DNA of 32,307 bases from assembly GCA_019115525.1 (NCBI GenBank), contig DXDJ01000043.1, forward strand, positions 1-32,307, in the 5' to 3' direction. Both the position numbers and the translations under genes were made by a program. The stretch's first letter is position 1. Each line of letters begins with the position of its first letter. Source of the stretch: Candidatus Helicobacter avistercoris (GTDB lineage Bacteria > Campylobacterota > Campylobacteria > Campylobacterales > Helicobacteraceae). The notes beneath the pieces are model-generated. The model was not told the origin of the DNA. It was given only the letters and a program-made list of their open reading frames with translations, and did no database searches. Of the stretch, positions 4,126-30,911 are shown piece by piece.

Positions 4126-6194
4126 CGCCTATCTTTTTGCAAAAAAATCAATACCAACAAACTTCCCGTCCCCAAACAAATCACTTCACCAAAGGAATTT
4201 AATGCTCGAGTTTGGCTAAACAAGAAAAAACCAAAAGAAAAAAGCGTTGTAAGGGTTGAAAACAAAATTGCACTTCTTGCCCCTTCCACTCTCCCTTCGC
4301 GTGTGTGATAGATTCCATAATCAACCCCTACAACTACCACGATTAGAAGTGCAAAAAGATGCATAATATTCACAGCACTTCTAAGTGAGAGATAGCACAT
4401 AACAACACCAAAGGGGAAAAGAATAAAACTTAGAGCATTGAAAAAATCTCCTCTTGTGCTTATAGCCAACAAAACAACCATTGCAACAAATGCAAGTGCA
4501 AGAATGCTAACCATTGGTGCATAAATCCCTTGCGTAATTTGTGCGATAAGATCTTGGATTTGTGAAGTATTCACTCCTGTGAGATGCTCAAGCTTACTTA
4601 GCTCACTTGTATAGCTTTGCGTATAGTATTTTTTGCCATCTTTGATAATAGTAAAACCCATCAAACTCAGCTCATCAAAGGTAAGTTCTCCTTGGAATCT
4701 TGGAATATTTTTATAAGCATAAGAGAGGGTTTGAGCTAGATTTTTATCTATCTTTCCAATTTGATAAACCGCGTCTTCATAACGCTTTTTAAAATCATAA
4801 AATGACATTGATTTGTAATATCTCTCTCTTTTTTTGATTTCTGCTTTTGTTGGAAATATCGCCAAAGCAGTAGGAGAGGAAAGGAGACTATCAATCTCTC
4901 TAGCCTTTGCAATCAAGCCATCAATACTTGTTGCATAAAACAAATAGGGCTTCTCCACATCTTGCAGAGGAGCAAAAAAATCTTTTTGGGCATTCATTTG
5001 GACATTTTGGTAATCCAATTTTGACAGATCAAAATCTGCTGTAATTTTGACACTCATAACACCAAGCATTACAACGCTCAAGATTAAAAAATAAAAAGAG
5101 GGAATGCAATTAAGAGATATTTCTTCAATCTTTTGATACATTCTTGGTTTTTCAAAGCCAATTTTTTGATACAAAAAAGCAAAGCATAAGTATGCTGCTG
5201 TGAGATTGATCATAGCATAGAGTGCAAGCTGATTAAGAAGAGGAAAGGGAACAAACAAACATACAAAAAATCCCACCAAAGTCGTTATAAATCCATAAAA
5301 TACGGCAGAATTAAATCTAATTTTTCTTTGAAGATAAAACCCTAAAAAATGATGGTGCATCATATAATCGATACAAATATTGCTAATCCCTATCCCAAAG
5401 CTCAAAGACATAATACTCACGCTAGGATAAAGAAGCAAAAGAGCCAAGATCGCAATAAGATTGGAAAATACAAGAGTGGCAATCATATTAAAAGTAAGAA
5501 GAGGCATTCTCAAAATTACAAAATACAAAATCAAGAAGAATCCTGCAGAAAACAGCATAAGCAGATTTACCTCATCCATAATAAGCTGAGGATTTTCTAC
5601 GCTCATAAAAAGAGGAGAGAAGTAATGCTTGATTCCATATTTTTGAGCCAAAGAAGTGAATTCTTCATAAAGTAGATGCACTTTTTTTGCATCTGCACTT
5701 TTCATCTGCACAACAACATAAGGCTCATTTTCAAATACAAAATCCTTAGCAAACTGAGGAATTTCAATAATTTTTAAAGGATCTAGGGGATTAAAATTGG
5801 GGCTTGAGGCTGATTGAAGCAGAGTATTTAACATCTCTTTTGGTTCCATTTTATTGGCTCTTAAAACTCCTAGATAAAAATAATTCTTGCTCAAAAATTC
5901 TTGGAAAAAGAGATTGGGTTTTACTCCTTGATGAACCGTGGCGACATTGGGCAAAAGTGCAACATCTGAAATAAAAGTATCAAAATCCCTTGCATCCTTT
6001 TTGGAGACATAAATCGTTTTTGAATCACTAAATTTGCGATTTAGATCTACCCATTCTCGCTCATTTCCCTGAGGAAAAAGATCCAATACATCCAAACTAA
6101 TCTTTTTGCTCCAATACTCAGGAGAACTCCAAAAGACTCCAAAAACAACAATCGCTACGAAAAAAAACAAAATAAAATTTAAACTCTTTCTCAA
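4122..6194 (-). CDS. MMPL/RND superfamily transporter
   Basis: Inner-membrane protein of 690 residues with the duplicated RND-like plan. TM1 is at about 6-22 and a large periplasmic loop at 25-205. A five-helix block follows at about 208-342, with a further helix at about 365-382, a second periplasmic loop and a second block near 555-685. Each block carries the GxxxDY-like element (GIGISNICIDYMMHH at about 267-281; VVGVDYGIYHTREG near the second block) that supports proton coupling in RND/MMPL proteins. Related proteins export lipids or hopanoids; the substrate here is unknown. The start is TTG at 6194-6192. It heads a tight three-gene unit with the YkgJ-type and TPR genes. Length is near that of other single-polypeptide MMPL exporters. 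Confidence 0.8.
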   Translation of the reverse strand: MRKSLNFILFFFVAIVVFGVFWSSPEYWSKKISLDVLDLFPQGNEREWVDLNRKFSDSKTIYVSKKDARDFDTFISDVALLPNVATVHQGVKPNLFFQEFLSKNYFYLGVLRANKMEPKEMLNTLLQSASSPNFNPLDPLKIIEIPQFAKDFVFENEPYVVVQMKSADAKKVHLLYEEFTSLAQKYGIKHYFSPLFMSVENPQLIMDEVNLLMLFSAGFFLILYFVILRMPLLTFNMIATLVFSNLIAILALLLLYPSVSIMSLSFGIGISNICIDYMMHHHFLGFYLQRKIRFNSAVFYGFITTLVGFFVCLFVPFPLLNQLALYAMINLTAAYLCFAFLYQKIGFEKPRMYQKIEEISLNCIPSFYFLILSVVMLGVMSVKITADFDLSKLDYQNVQMNAQKDFFAPLQDVEKPYLFYATSIDGLIAKAREIDSLLSSPTALAIFPTKAEIKKRERYYKSMSFYDFKKRYEDAVYQIGKIDKNLAQTLSYAYKNIPRFQGELTFDELSLMGFTIIKDGKKYYTQSYTSELSKLEHLTGVNTSQIQDLIAQITQGIYAPMVSILALAFVAMVVLLAISTRGDFFNALSFILFPFGVVMCYLSLRSAVNIMHLFALLIVVVVGVDYGIYHTREGRVEGARSAILFSTLTTLFSFGFFLFSQTRALNSFGEVICLGTGSLLVLIFLQKDRR

Positions 6195-6230
6195 TTTTCA
6201 CTCTTTCTATTTCGCAAAATCAATCCAAAA

Positions 6231-6238
6231 ATTATAAT
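6231..6238. promoter_or_regulatory. Back-to-back -10 boxes between the MMPL operon and xseB
   Basis: The sequence ATTATAAT contains TATAAT on the plus strand (6233-6238), 40 bases before the xseB start. It also contains TATAAT on the minus strand (6236-6231), 37 bases before the MMPL start. The 83-bp divergent gap therefore has one AT-rich core that could serve both directions. Assigned by eye. Confidence 0.45.
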
Positions 6239-6277
6239 ATACATTTCTCTAAACCATTTCATACCTAAAGGCACAAA

Positions 6278-6472
6278 ATGCAAACAACTCCCAATTTTGA
6301 AGAACTAATTGAACTCTCCAAACGCTCTCTTGATTCACTTAGCAATCAAAACCTTCCTCTCAAAGAAAGCTTAGAGATTTACAAACAAGGACTTTCTTAT
6401 CTTAAAGAAGCACAAAGGCTCCTAGAAGAAGCAAAGCTTGAATATCAAGAAATTTCAAAGCCCCAAGAATAG
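6278..6472 (+). CDS. xseB: Exodeoxyribonuclease VII small subunit
   Basis: Small subunit of the cytoplasmic nuclease that degrades single-stranded DNA to oligonucleotides; several copies bind the XseA large subunit, which is not in this window. The 64-residue protein follows the family pattern: FEELIELSKRSLDSL, then a hinge LPLKESLEIYKQGLSYL and a final helix AQRLLEEAKLEYQEI, giving the usual two-helix hairpin. Length is typical. AAAGG lies upstream of the ATG. It is followed by rpoD from its own promoter. Confidence 0.85.
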   Translation: MQTTPNFEELIELSKRSLDSLSNQNLPLKESLEIYKQGLSYLKEAQRLLEEAKLEYQEISKPQE

Positions 6473-6502
6473 GGAGCTTGAAAAAGGTTTAAAAATTTTG
6501 GG

Positions 6503-6508
6503 TATAAT
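6503..6508 (+). promoter_or_regulatory. rpoD promoter -10 box (TATAAT)
   Basis: A perfect TATAAT preceded by TGGG, in the 124-base gap between xseB and rpoD. The expected transcript would have a leader of about 80 bases before the rpoD ATG. Assigned by eye from position and match to the Helicobacter sigma-80 consensus. Confidence 0.6.
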
Positions 6509-6596
6509 CCAAACTTTTTGAAGTGATAAAATGCTTTAGTTTTTGTGCATTTTGTCGATTTCCTGCATTCAACTTCATACCCAAAGGCTTTTTCTT

Positions 6597-8468
6597 ATGG
6601 AAACTGAAAATCAACAAACCCCAAAAACCAAAAAAGACCCAAATAAAGAGCTCGAACTGCTTTTTAGTGAAGAGGAAACTCCTTATATTTCTTATGAGAA
6701 GATTGCTCAAACTCTACAAAAAGCTCCCACTCCTGCACAAGTCAAAAAAGTCAGAGAATTGGCAACAAAATACAACAAACAGCTAATGAGTTCATCAGAA
6801 GTTGCAAAACTTCTTAATATTCAAGACAAAACAAAACTTATAGAAGAAAAAAGAAAAGTTCTTGATGGTGAGCTTGAGGATGAATTTGACTTTATGAAAG
6901 AGCGTGAGCTTTTGGAGTGGAGTAGAAGTGATAGCCCTGTAAGAATGTATCTGCGTGAAATGGGGCAAATCCCCCTACTTACAAAAGAAGAAGAAGTTAT
7001 TTTAAGCAAACAAATCGAACTAGGCGAAGATACGATCTTAGATGCAATTTGCTCTGTGCCTTATTTGATTGATTTTATCCATGATTATCGCGACGCTCTC
7101 ATTAACCGCGAACGAAGAGTTAAAGAACTTTTTAGAAATTTTGATGATGATGGTGAAGAGGAGGAGGGCGACGAGGAAGAAAATATTGAGGTCGATGATA
7201 ATGATGAAACCCTCAAACCTATTAGCAAAAAAGATCAAAAACGCATCGACAATGTTCTTGCGAGTTTTAAAAATCTAGAAAAAGCCAAAAAAGAATGGCT
7301 AAAGGTTTTAGAATCTGAGTCAAATGTTGATGATGATGAATTGGGGCATATTTTACTTCTTGCACACAAAAAGTATGTCCTCAAAGAAAGTTTGCTTGAA
7401 TTGGGGCCGACAAGCAAACTTATCAGCGAACTTGTCAAAGCAATGGAAAACACACTTAAGAGTGGTGATGGATTTGAGAGAGAATTGAAGCGTCTTGAAT
7501 ACAAACTTCCACTTTTTAACGATGTAATGATTGCAAATCACAAAAAAATTCTTGAAAATATTACCAATATGTCAAGAGAAGAGATCATAGAAGTTGTTCC
7601 AGAAAGCACTATGGTTAGCGTATATATGGAGCTAAAAAAACTCTTCCAAACCAAAGAAGCAAGCGAAGGAGGATTTGATCTTGAGCCTGAGAAGCTCAAA
7701 GAGATTTTGGAACAAATCAAAAGAGGAAAAACAATTTCTGACAAAGCCAAAGGCAAAATGGCACGCTCCAACTTGCGACTTGTTGTCTCAATCGCTAAGC
7801 GTTACACCAATCGCGGGCTCCCTTTCCTTGATCTTATCCAAGAAGGAAATATTGGTCTTATGAAAGCTGTGGATAAATTTGAGTATAAAAAAGGCTTCAA
7901 ATTCTCTACTTATGCGACTTGGTGGATCCGTCAAGCCATTTCAAGAGCAATTGCTGATCAAGCAAGAACGATTAGAATCCCCATCCACATGATTGAAACC
8001 ATCAATAGGATTCATAAAATTATGCGAAAGCACATCCAAGAACATGGAAAAGAGCCTGATGTAGAGTTTATTGCTCAAGAAGTGGGATTAAGTGTAGATA
8101 AGGTTAAGAATGTAATTAAGATTACAAAAGAGCCTATCAGTCTTGAAGCACCTATTGGAAGTGATGAGGATGGGAAGTTTGGAGATTTTGTTGAGGATAA
8201 GAATGCCATAGGTCCTATGGATCACATCCTCAAAGAAGACTTGCGAGGACAAATTGAACTTATTTTAGATCAACTCAATGATAGAGAGCAAGCTGTGATT
8301 AGAATGAGATTTGGACTCTTAGATGATGAGAGCGATCGAACGCTTGAGGAAATTGGAAAAGAGCTCAATGTAACAAGAGAGCGAGTAAGACAAATTGAAT
8401 CTAGCGCGATTAAAAAACTCAAACACCCCAAAGTTGGAAGACAGCTCAAAAACTATATGGAGGAATAA
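6597..8468 (+). CDS. rpoD: RNA polymerase housekeeping sigma factor RpoD (sigma-70/sigma-80)
   Basis: Directs RNA polymerase to housekeeping promoters. The start is placed at ATG 6597; an in-frame TTG at 6543 would add 18 residues unlike the family, and AAAGG precedes the ATG. From this start the protein has 623 residues. Region 1.2 ([11 protein letters not shown]) is near 113, regions 2.1-2.4 are at about 386-465 ([16 protein letters not shown], the [12 protein letters not shown] core and [13 protein letters not shown]), and region 3 follows. Region 4, with the helix-turn-helix [19 protein letters not shown], is at about 583-602. The non-conserved segment between 1.2 and 2 holds a very acidic run at about 183-204. 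It is preceded by xseB and followed after 27 bases by the eptA-like gene. Confidence 0.96.
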
Positions 8469-27398: not shown

Positions 27399-28103
27399 TT
27401 ATCTTAATCTTTGTTTGTTTCTTTTTGATAAATAAACAATCAAATAAAGTGCAGGGGTATCCAAAAGCGAAGTGAAGATAAAAATCACATAACTTGAGAA
27501 AATAATCTGCATAATCACATCGATCTCCAATACTCCATAAAAAGCCCCGAAACTAAAAAGTATCGTATTTAAAAGCTGAGAGAGAAGCGTAGAGGCATTG
27601 TTCCTAAGCCACAAAAATCGCTCTCTTCTCCCCCAAATCTTCGTGCTGAGTTTCCACCACCAATGATAAAGCCAAACATCTACATAAGAAGCGATAGCAA
27701 AAACAATCAATGAAACAATCACAATGCGTGGAGTTTGAGAAAAAATTTGAGCCATCGCTGTGTGTAATGAGGCATCTTGGAGGGTATATACAAGCCACAT
27801 CTGAGAAGCTATTAAGAAAACTACACTACCAAAGATTGTGAGTTTGATTGATTCTTGAGCAATTCTCTTTCCTCGAATCTCGCTCAATGCATCAGTGATA
27901 AGAAAAGTTGAAGCAAACAGCACATTTCCCAGTGTTTGCTCCATTCCAAAAGCTTTGATCAAAAGCACGACTTCAATATTTGCAAGCACTGTTGCCAAAA
28001 CTGCAAAAACAAGCAATCCTTTTGTTTTAAAAAACCCATAGGCAAGCACTATGCCGCCATAGATTACCACAACACTCAAGCACAACAAAAATTCATTACT
28101 CAT
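27399..28103 (-). CDS. yhhQ: Queuosine precursor transporter (YhhQ/VUT family)
   Basis: Inner-membrane uptake protein of 234 residues with about six TM helices. YhhQ of E. coli imports preQ0 and preQ1, and a Chlamydia homologue takes up queuine. Family features seen: TFLITDALSEIRGKRIAQESI in the first third (the conserved T-D-x-x-x-E-x-x-G-K segment), VDVWLYHWWWK, and LWLRNNASTLLSQLLNTILF. Its start overlaps the end of the radical SAM gene by eight bases, so the two are coupled. The base transported here is not determinable from sequence. Confidence 0.85.
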   Translation of the reverse strand: MSNEFLLCLSVVVIYGGIVLAYGFFKTKGLLVFAVLATVLANIEVVLLIKAFGMEQTLGNVLFASTFLITDALSEIRGKRIAQESIKLTIFGSVVFLIASQMWLVYTLQDASLHTAMAQIFSQTPRIVIVSLIVFAIASYVDVWLYHWWWKLSTKIWGRRERFLWLRNNASTLLSQLLNTILFSFGAFYGVLEIDVIMQIIFSSYVIFIFTSLLDTPALYLIVYLSKRNKQRLR

Positions 28104-28788
28104 TGATTTCTCCTACACCAAAATCTGTATTCTCCAACAAAATATCAATCCTTGGATGATCTTTTATTTGCGGATAAATTTTGTTTAAAAAAACTTCTAT
28201 CACCCCTCTATCTGCTTGCATTTTAGAATTATCACACATCACATTTAAGCAAATACGCTCAAAGTATTTTAATCCTAGTTCTATATCTTTGTTTATCATG
28301 TCTTCATTTTGAGAAGTAATGCCAATCAAAAAATTTGCTTCATCAAAATCTTTGGCAATTTCTTGCGGATCTTTTGGTTTGATTCCTTTTTTTAATAACC
28401 CTTCTCTTAGAGCATAATCAAAACTTTCAAGGCCGAGCTTGATCTTGACTTCAAAATCCAAAAAGAAATTTTTTAGTGAAGGAATCTTGTTTTTATAAAG
28501 ATAATGACACTCAAAAATTAAAATACCAATCCCCTTATCTTTTGCCACTTTTAAAATCTTTTGCATACTTTTTGAATCAATTTCATCAAAACTGCCCGAG
28601 TTAATAACTTCAAGAACACCATAAATCCCCTTGACTTGCTCAAGAGTTTGAGAGTTGATTGTGTAGCTATTTTTGCTTACATCAAGATAATAATCACAAA
28701 AGGTGCATTGCTTATATTTGCATCCATTGCCTTGAAGCAAAACAATCTCGCGTTTGTTTTTGTTGTGAATTTCTGCGTAACGATTCAT
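28096..28788 (-). CDS. Radical SAM-type protein with CX4CX2C motif
   Basis: Cytoplasmic protein of 230 residues. The putative [4Fe-4S]/SAM motif is C23-x4-C28-x2-C31 within GNGCKYKQCTFCDYY, one residue longer than the canonical CX3CX2C. It is followed by INSGSFDEID at about 63-72 (the GSF element common in Elp3-like radical SAM enzymes), then FECHYLY and GLESFDYALREGLLKKGI, which are typical barrel strands. The domain is short and has no extra Fe-S or substrate domain. The eight-base overlap with the YhhQ-type transporter gene suggests a role with deazapurine precursors of queuosine, for example a queuine-lyase (QueL)-like salvage step. That is an inference from context. The ribosome-binding site is weak. 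Confidence 0.75.
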   Translation of the reverse strand: MNRYAEIHNKNKREIVLLQGNGCKYKQCTFCDYYLDVSKNSYTINSQTLEQVKGIYGVLEVINSGSFDEIDSKSMQKILKVAKDKGIGILIFECHYLYKNKIPSLKNFFLDFEVKIKLGLESFDYALREGLLKKGIKPKDPQEIAKDFDEANFLIGITSQNEDMINKDIELGLKYFERICLNVMCDNSKMQADRGVIEVFLNKIYPQIKDHPRIDILLENTDFGVGEINE

Positions 28789-28821: not shown

Positions 28822-28846
28822 AGAGAAGGGGATTAACCCTTTCTCT
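28822..28846 (-). terminator. Hairpin at the end of fusA
   Basis: On the minus strand AGAGAAAGGG and CCCCTTCTCT form a 10-bp stem with one mismatch and a 5-base loop; the fusA stop codon lies within it. A C- and T-rich stretch ending in CTCTCTTTTT follows about 15-25 bases on. Likely the end, perhaps leaky, of the str operon transcript before the radical SAM gene. Confidence 0.45.
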
Positions 28847-30911
28847 TCTCTGTGATTTCTTTTGCGATATTTGCTGGAACTTCTCCGTAGTGATCAAACT
28901 CCATAGTATATGTTCCTCTACCTTGAGTTGCAGAACGCAAGTCAGTAGAGTATCCAAACATTTCTGCAAGTGGAACAAATGCATTGACAATCTTAAGTCC
29001 CATTCGATCATCCATAGAATTGATTTGTCCTCTTCTTCTATTGAGATCCCCAATCACATCTCCCATATACTCCTCAGGAACTTCTACTTCAACTTTCATC
29101 ATTGGCTCAAGAAGAACTGGAGTAGCTTTTCTACAAGCATCTTTGAACGCCATAGAACCTGCGATTTTAAACGCCATCTCGGAACTATCTACATCATGGT
29201 AGCTTCCATCAAAAAGCGTAACTTTGAAATCTACAACTGGATAACCTGCAAGCACACCATTTTGCATTGCCTCTTGGATACCTTTATCAACTGCAGGGAT
29301 ATATTCTTTTGGAATCACACCACCTGAAATTTCGTTGACAAACTCATATCCGCTTCCAGCTTCTTTTGGCTCAAGCTTGATAAATACATGTCCGTATTGC
29401 CCTCTACCACCTGATTGCTTTGCGTATTTGCACTCTTGCTCCACAGATCCACGGATTGTTTCACGGAATGCAACTTGAGGCTGTCCAATTTCTGCCTCAA
29501 CTTTAAACTCTCTCTTGAGACGATCAACAATGATTTCAAGGTGAAGCTCACCCATACCACCAATAAGAGTTTGACCTGTTTCTTCTTGTGTGCTTACTCT
29601 AAAGCTTGGATCTTCCTCAGCGAGTTTTCCAAGTGCAACAGCCATTTTCTCTTGATCTGCCTTTGTTTTTGGCTCAACTGCAATGTGAATTACAGGCTCT
29701 GGGAATTCCATTCTCTCCAAAATTACAGGATCTTTTTCAGAACAAAGCGTATCTCCTGTGAGAGTATCTTTAAGCCCGACAAACGCACAAATCTCTCCAG
29801 CATAAACATCTTTGATGTCCTCACGCTTATTTGAATGCATTTTTAGAAGTCTTCCCACTCTCTCTTTCTTGCCTTTTGTAGAGTTGAGTACATAGCTTCC
29901 ACTCTCAAGCATTCCTCGATATACACGCACGAAAGTAAGCTGTCCTACAAATGGATCTGTCATGATCTTAAACGCAAGTCCTGCAAACTCTCCATTATCT
30001 CCTGATTTAACGCTCACTTCTTCTTCTGTCTTAGGATCAATTCCCTTAATATCTGCAACTTCTGTTGGTGCAGGCAAGAAATCAATTACCGCATCAAGCA
30101 ATGTTTGAACACCTTTGTTTTTGAAAGATGAACCACAAAGCATAGGAATAAGACTCATGCTTAGACATCCAGCTTTGATGCCCTTTTTGATCTCTTCTAC
30201 TGTTAGCTCTTCACCACCAAGGTATTTCTCCATCAAAGCCTCATCTTGCTCAGCAGCAGCCTCTACAAGCTTTTCTCTATACTCATTGGCTTTTTCTAGC
30301 AAATCAGCAGGAATGTCTTCAATGTCATATTTTGCACCCATTGTTTCATCATTCCAAACGATAGCCTTCATTTGAATAAGATCAATAACACCTTTGAAGC
30401 TATCTTCTGCACCAATTGGAATATTGATAGGCACTGGATTAGCTTTAAGTCGTGCTTTGATTTGTTCTTCAACATTGTAGAAGTTTGCACCGATTCTATC
30501 CATTTTATTAACAAATACCATTCTTGGAACGCCGTATTTGTTTGCTTGTCGCCATACAGTTTCACTTTGAGGTTGAACACCACCAACAGAACAAAATACC
30601 GCAACAGCACCATCCAAAACCCTCATAGATCGTTCTACTTCGATTGTAAAATCCACGTGTCCTGGAGTATCGATTAGATTGATTTGATAGTCTTTCCAAA
30701 AACAAGTTGTCGCAGCAGAAGTAATTGTAATCCCTCTTTCTTTCTCTTGCTCCATCCAGTCCATTGTTGCAGCACCATCATGAACCTCACCGATTTTGTG
30801 ACTTACACCTGTATAAAAAAGAATTCTCTCAGAAGTCGTTGTTTTTCCTGCATCAATATGAGCAGCAATACCAATATTTCTAATTCGATTTAATGGGGTT
30901 TTTCTTGCCAT
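28833..30911 (-). CDS. fusA: Translation elongation factor G
   Basis: GTPase that moves tRNA and mRNA through the ribosome and, with RRF, recycles it. The 692 residues contain GTP-binding motifs AHIDAGKT (17-24), the switch I region [11 protein letters not shown] (59-69), DTPGH (81-85) and NKMD (135-138). Domains II-V follow, with the domain IV sequence [16 protein letters not shown] and the terminal [20 protein letters not shown] precedes the ATG. It is the last gene of the str operon here; tuf does not follow, consistent with Helicobacter, where tuf is elsewhere. Confidence 0.98.

Follow-up and report, generated by a model that had tools for sequence, protein, structure and literature searches.

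Which substrate is served by a radical SAM gene that runs into the gene of a YhhQ-type transporter in a gut Helicobacter? The pair lies in a stretch of 32,307 nucleotides of Candidatus Helicobacter avistercoris (contig DXDJ01000043.1, positions 1 to 32,307), referred to here as the window. The original prediction, made from the letters of the DNA, was that enzyme and transporter together scavenge queuine, the free base of queuosine. We consider it highly probable that the two genes, queL and yhhQ, form a horizontally acquired queuine-salvage unit that has replaced a lost de novo route. The homology and fold of the enzyme, a gap in the queuosine pathway and the consistent presence of a YhhQ neighbour all support the interpretation in terms of queuine salvage. 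Animals cannot synthesize queuine, a micronutrient, and have to take it up from microbes and food. If the interpretation is true, a Helicobacter lineage that consumes queuine and does not produce it would compete with its host for this compound.

Layout of the queL-yhhQ locus

The gene with the cysteine pattern C23-x4-C28-x2-C31 was found as an intact reading frame, and its predicted overlap of eight bases with the YhhQ-type gene was confirmed to the base. The features of the locus are as follows.

28096..28788, minus strand: queL, predicted radical SAM queuine lyase, 230 aa, ATG start
28696..28722, minus strand: CX4CX2C [4Fe-4S] motif of QueL, codons C23 to C31
27399..28103, minus strand: yhhQ/vut (QPTR, PF02592) transporter gene, 234 aa; predicted queuine importer
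28096..28103, minus strand: queL/yhhQ overlap, ATGAGTAA, 8 bp, holding the queL stop TAA and the yhhQ start ATG
28110..28113, minus strand: GGAG, Shine-Dalgarno-like as read from the sequence, inside the 3' end of queL and 6 bases before the yhhQ ATG
28833..30911, minus strand: fusA, for elongation factor G; follows rpsL and rpsG and lies 44 bp upstream of queL in the same orientation

The fusA gene is context only and lies outside the salvage unit; the same fusA-queL order is found in H. cholecystus. In two other species, H. pametensis and the one represented by genome G005, tgt is directly upstream of queL, giving the order tgt-queL-yhhQ. Downstream of the unit, genes for an M48 protease, PrmC and a DctA-like protein are conserved across the six sampled species of this genus-level group of Helicobacter. 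An ancestral insertion of the unit between tgt and the M48 protease gene was considered and found no support, as the two genes are not adjacent in Helicobacteraceae that lack queL. An Rfam scan of the window and eleven related loci found no preQ1 riboswitch.

The coupling on which the original prediction was built holds among the relatives, the closest homologues of QueL consistently adjoining a YhhQ gene. The two genes are neighbours in each of the six group species and at all 34 loci of the QueL group containing the window protein, with the transporter always directly downstream, and we therefore conclude that the arrangement is not due to chance. The other neighbours of the pair vary across the 34 loci.

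Homology and fold of the radical SAM protein

No Pfam model, including those for radical SAM proteins, matched the queL product above its cut-off. A comparison with known queuine lyases had been proposed in the original prediction. When the protein was searched against the PDB with phmmer, the single match was the queuine lyase of Clostridium spiroforme (6P78), covering residues 1-227 with an E-value of 8e-45 and ~42% identity. A profile built from 40 related proteins matched 6P78 with an E-value of 5.8e-95; the next match had 0.086, and nothing else rose above noise. The AlphaFold model of the window QueL (pLDDT 92.4) fits 6P78, an entry whose description names SAM and queuine as bound ligands, with a TM-score of 0.92 and an rmsd of 2.0, while the PDB entry ranked second, another radical SAM enzyme, reached only 0.56. 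Judged by its sequence and its predicted fold, the window QueL is a full-length homologue of a characterised queuine lyase, and no other radical SAM family matches it better.

The spacing of the cysteines had been taken as atypical and as a possible mark of a distinct subgroup. This part of the original prediction did not hold up: CX4CX2C occurs in every one of the 82 QueL sequences whose N-terminus is complete, among them 6P78, and so is a signature of the QueL family and not of a subgroup. In an alignment of 40 related sequences the motif and 28 residues are invariant. An apparent internal TGA in queL of three genomes (G002, G004 and G005) raised the possibility of selenocysteine or of a broken gene; this was dismissed, as the frames are open to the terminal stop in all three.

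The reaction of QueL has been described (PMC11130926, PMC10723273), and the window protein resembles the enzymes of C. spiroforme and Clostridioides difficile in whole-length homology, in fold and in the CX4CX2C motif. From this family homology, together with the gap in the pathway described below, we infer that the window QueL converts queuine to preQ1. The [4Fe-4S] cluster, bound by C23, C28 and C31, would act with S-adenosylmethionine to generate a 5'-deoxyadenosyl radical, which would start the cleavage of queuine between its cyclopentenediol ring and the aminomethyl nitrogen, leaving preQ1.

A QueL-like radical SAM enzyme might instead act on a different 7-deazapurine or on a different imported base. 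The window QueL falls in a clade separate from that of the C. spiroforme enzyme, its 42% identity to the latter leaves room for a shifted substrate, and it is weakly related to RaSEA, a radical SAM protein of archaeosine synthesis (TIGR01210, 38 bits with the cut-off at 212). However, a good fold match was obtained with 6P78 only, the gap in the genome is exactly the one that a queuine lyase would fill, and tgt adjoins queL in the two species mentioned above. We regard a different substrate of this kind as very unlikely.

Queuosine pathway genes and the imported base

The presence or absence of the que genes and tgt had been put forward as a check on queuine salvage, and the outcome is in its favor: the genome lacks QueC, QueD and QueF and has tgt, queA and queH. 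The same holds across the group. QueD is absent from the six group genomes. A true QueC was not found in any of the six, in which partial matches within larger frames covered at most ~71 of 210 positions, about a third of the model, with E-values of ~1e-7, compared with full-model matches of 1e-49 to 1e-79 in those Helicobacteraceae and members of related families that have QueC. A true QueF was likewise not found in the six genomes; sub-threshold matches extended over 57-60 of 81 positions in frames of ~185 aa, the size of GTP cyclohydrolase I, a relative, which these frames may encode. For QueE one model was used, with little power beyond E. coli-like sequences, and it gave no match in the six genomes.

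Tgt, QueA and QueH, on the other hand, are present in all six genomes, and the substrate pocket of Tgt reads GGLAVG in every species. This motif is that of a preQ1-type Tgt, the queuine-type enzyme having GG[LS][AS]G (PMC10723273). With such a gene set the cell should be able to turn preQ1 into Q-tRNA and unable to make preQ1, which must therefore be regenerated, a gap that QueL would fill. The loss of the de novo genes, the retention of Tgt, QueA and QueH and the GGLAVG pocket fit the known "indirect" salvage route, and the same combination of Tgt, QueA and QueH without de novo genes is seen in C. spiroforme and C. difficile. In the mechanism that we propose, the YhhQ-type protein would import queuine as the free base, from the host or its diet, and the preQ1 released by QueL would be inserted by the ordinary preQ1-type Tgt into tRNAs with GUN anticodons. 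QueA would add the epoxycyclopentanediol, and QueH would then reduce it to queuosine. The unit would in this way stand in for the lost QueD/QueE/QueC/QueF route.

A direct route has also to be considered, in which queuine is itself the substrate of Tgt and the radical SAM gene plays no part or is in decay. Chlamydia salvages queuine with YhhQ and Tgt alone (PMC10723273), and C. trachomatis shares with the Helicobacter group a PF02592 transporter, a predicted import of queuine and the absence of the de novo genes. The Tgt of C. trachomatis, however, is of the queuine type, whereas the Helicobacter pocket is of the preQ1 type in all six species; QueA and QueH have been kept, a predicted QueL is available for the conversion, and all the genomes have an intact queL. 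A direct route is thus extremely improbable here.

We now turn from the indirect route itself to the base that enters it. The window transporter matches Vut_1/PF02592 of Pfam with an E-value of 9.7e-38 (130.3 bits against a cut-off of 27.2) and TIGR00697, "queuosine precursor transporter", with 143.6 bits against 50.95. Although the YhhQ/PF02592 proteins of other Helicobacter, presumed preQ0/preQ1 transporters, belong to the same Pfam family, they form a distant, separate clade. In the transporter tree, the QueL-linked copies from Helicobacter adjoin those from clostridia; the window protein scores 206-254 bits against most of the clostridial QueL-linked copies and 32-47 bits against the other Helicobacter proteins. 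Its linkage to QueL suggests that the transporter is a queuine importer, a role that we assign less firmly than that of the enzyme, and it could import preQ1 as well.

It is also conceivable, if rather unlikely, that the assignment of QueL is correct while the transporter imports preQ1/preQ0 or the Q nucleoside, with queuine coming from elsewhere or from turnover of the cell's own tRNA. The preQ1-type Tgt has been kept, and members of PF02592 with preQ0/preQ1 specificity are well documented (PMC10723273). Yet the transporter accompanies QueL at all 34 loci and is only distantly related to the other Helicobacter copies, which is what one would expect of a protein serving the substrate of QueL, and the six genomes contain no second PF02592 gene. 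Recycling of Q from the cell's own tRNA requires a nucleosidase, and no member of IU_nuc_hydro, the QueK family, was detected in the six genomes by a search directed at that family; an unrelated nucleosidase such as Qng1 might take its part. Import of queuine by the linked transporter remains the reading that we prefer, and linkage to QueL offers a testable rule for assigning a queuine substrate within the large and poorly resolved YhhQ family.

Both queuine lyase and the indirect route have already been published; what is probably new is their occurrence in Helicobacter. No mention of Helicobacter was found in those papers naming queuine lyase that were checked, other than the primary one on QueL (PNAS 2019). 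The combination found here, QueL with a YhhQ-type transporter and without QueK, differs from the characterised QueK-QueT-QueL set of C. difficile: the partner is a PF02592 protein in place of ECF/QueT, no nucleosidase of the QueK family was detected, and the pair resides in a Helicobacter. Neither a QueK nucleosidase nor an ECF/QueT gene adjoins the window queL.

Distribution and origin of the pair

The nearest named relatives are H. cholecystus (77% identity), H. brantae (74%) and H. pametensis (62%), all of which belong to the six sampled species of the genus-level group that carry queL-yhhQ. Among the Campylobacterota the unit is rare: strong matches to QueL were present in 7 of 397 genomes, a count that leaves out three genomes with weak partial matches (E 4e-8 to 9e-4). 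The seventh genome (G111) is from another genus-level group of the Helicobacteraceae; it has queL-yhhQ and lacks QueC, whereas its group mates G008 and G030 have QueC. Among the best 80 loci of a bacterial and archaeal genome collection, QueL is mainly a gene of Bacillota.

In the QueL tree the seven Helicobacteraceae proteins cluster together (support 99) among sequences from gut Lachnospiraceae, Ruminococcaceae and Epulopiscium, and this clade and 6P78 are located in separate halves of the tree. The pairs from these clostridia resemble that of the window in gene order and orientation, with the transporter directly downstream and QueL identities of up to ~56%; they differ in that none has tgt adjoining queL, and their other neighbours vary. 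On the 6P78 side, queL often adjoins genes for a nucleoside hydrolase and for an ECF or QueT component, in agreement with the C. difficile pathway (PMC10723273).

Joint horizontal transfer of queL and yhhQ from gut clostridia is the simplest reading of these sequence relationships, the direction of transfer being probable only, since the tree is poorly resolved around the Helicobacter clade. If this is correct, the salvage module is able to spread between phyla as a unit. We also lean towards a broader view, in which one distinct clade of QueL invariably occurs with a YhhQ branch of its own, specific for queuine, and this module crossed phyla into gut Helicobacter. There it would have taken the place of de novo synthesis and of the native preQ0/preQ1 transporter, making the cells dependent on queuine from the host, its diet or neighbouring organisms.

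The G+C content of queL is 31.3%, compared with 36-40% for its neighbours and 37.6% for the window, which is compatible with a foreign origin. A search for carriage of queL by phages gave no phage match. Carriage on plasmids was rejected: the one match among plasmid records is a 2.1-Mb record from Fusobacterium that, given its size, is probably a chromosome.

Several other loci differ in the partner of QueL. A homologue with 42% identity is encoded in Francisella sp. SYW-9 (L093:6001-6696, NZ_VXKQ01000014.1), immediately behind the gene of a pfkB-family kinase and close to a MoxR/VWA-type cluster, and may be a gammaproteobacterial QueL without a linked transporter. A well-supported clostridial QueL clade on a long stem (L054, L055, L060, L062, L067, L068 and L082) has no adjoining PF02592 gene. 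At three loci from Spirochaetaceae (L061, L063 and L080) and one from Muribaculaceae (L059), a very divergent PF02592 transporter gene precedes queL (~5000-6700), apparently a second, independent pairing of YhhQ and QueL outside the Bacillota. Within the Helicobacteraceae, QueC, QueF and QueL are missing from seven genomes (G007, G009, G014, G019, G021, G025 and G034), whose PF02592 transporter is a distant one. Such a gene set suggests simple salvage of preQ1, so that the family seems to comprise members with de novo synthesis, members that salvage preQ0/preQ1 and members of the QueL type.
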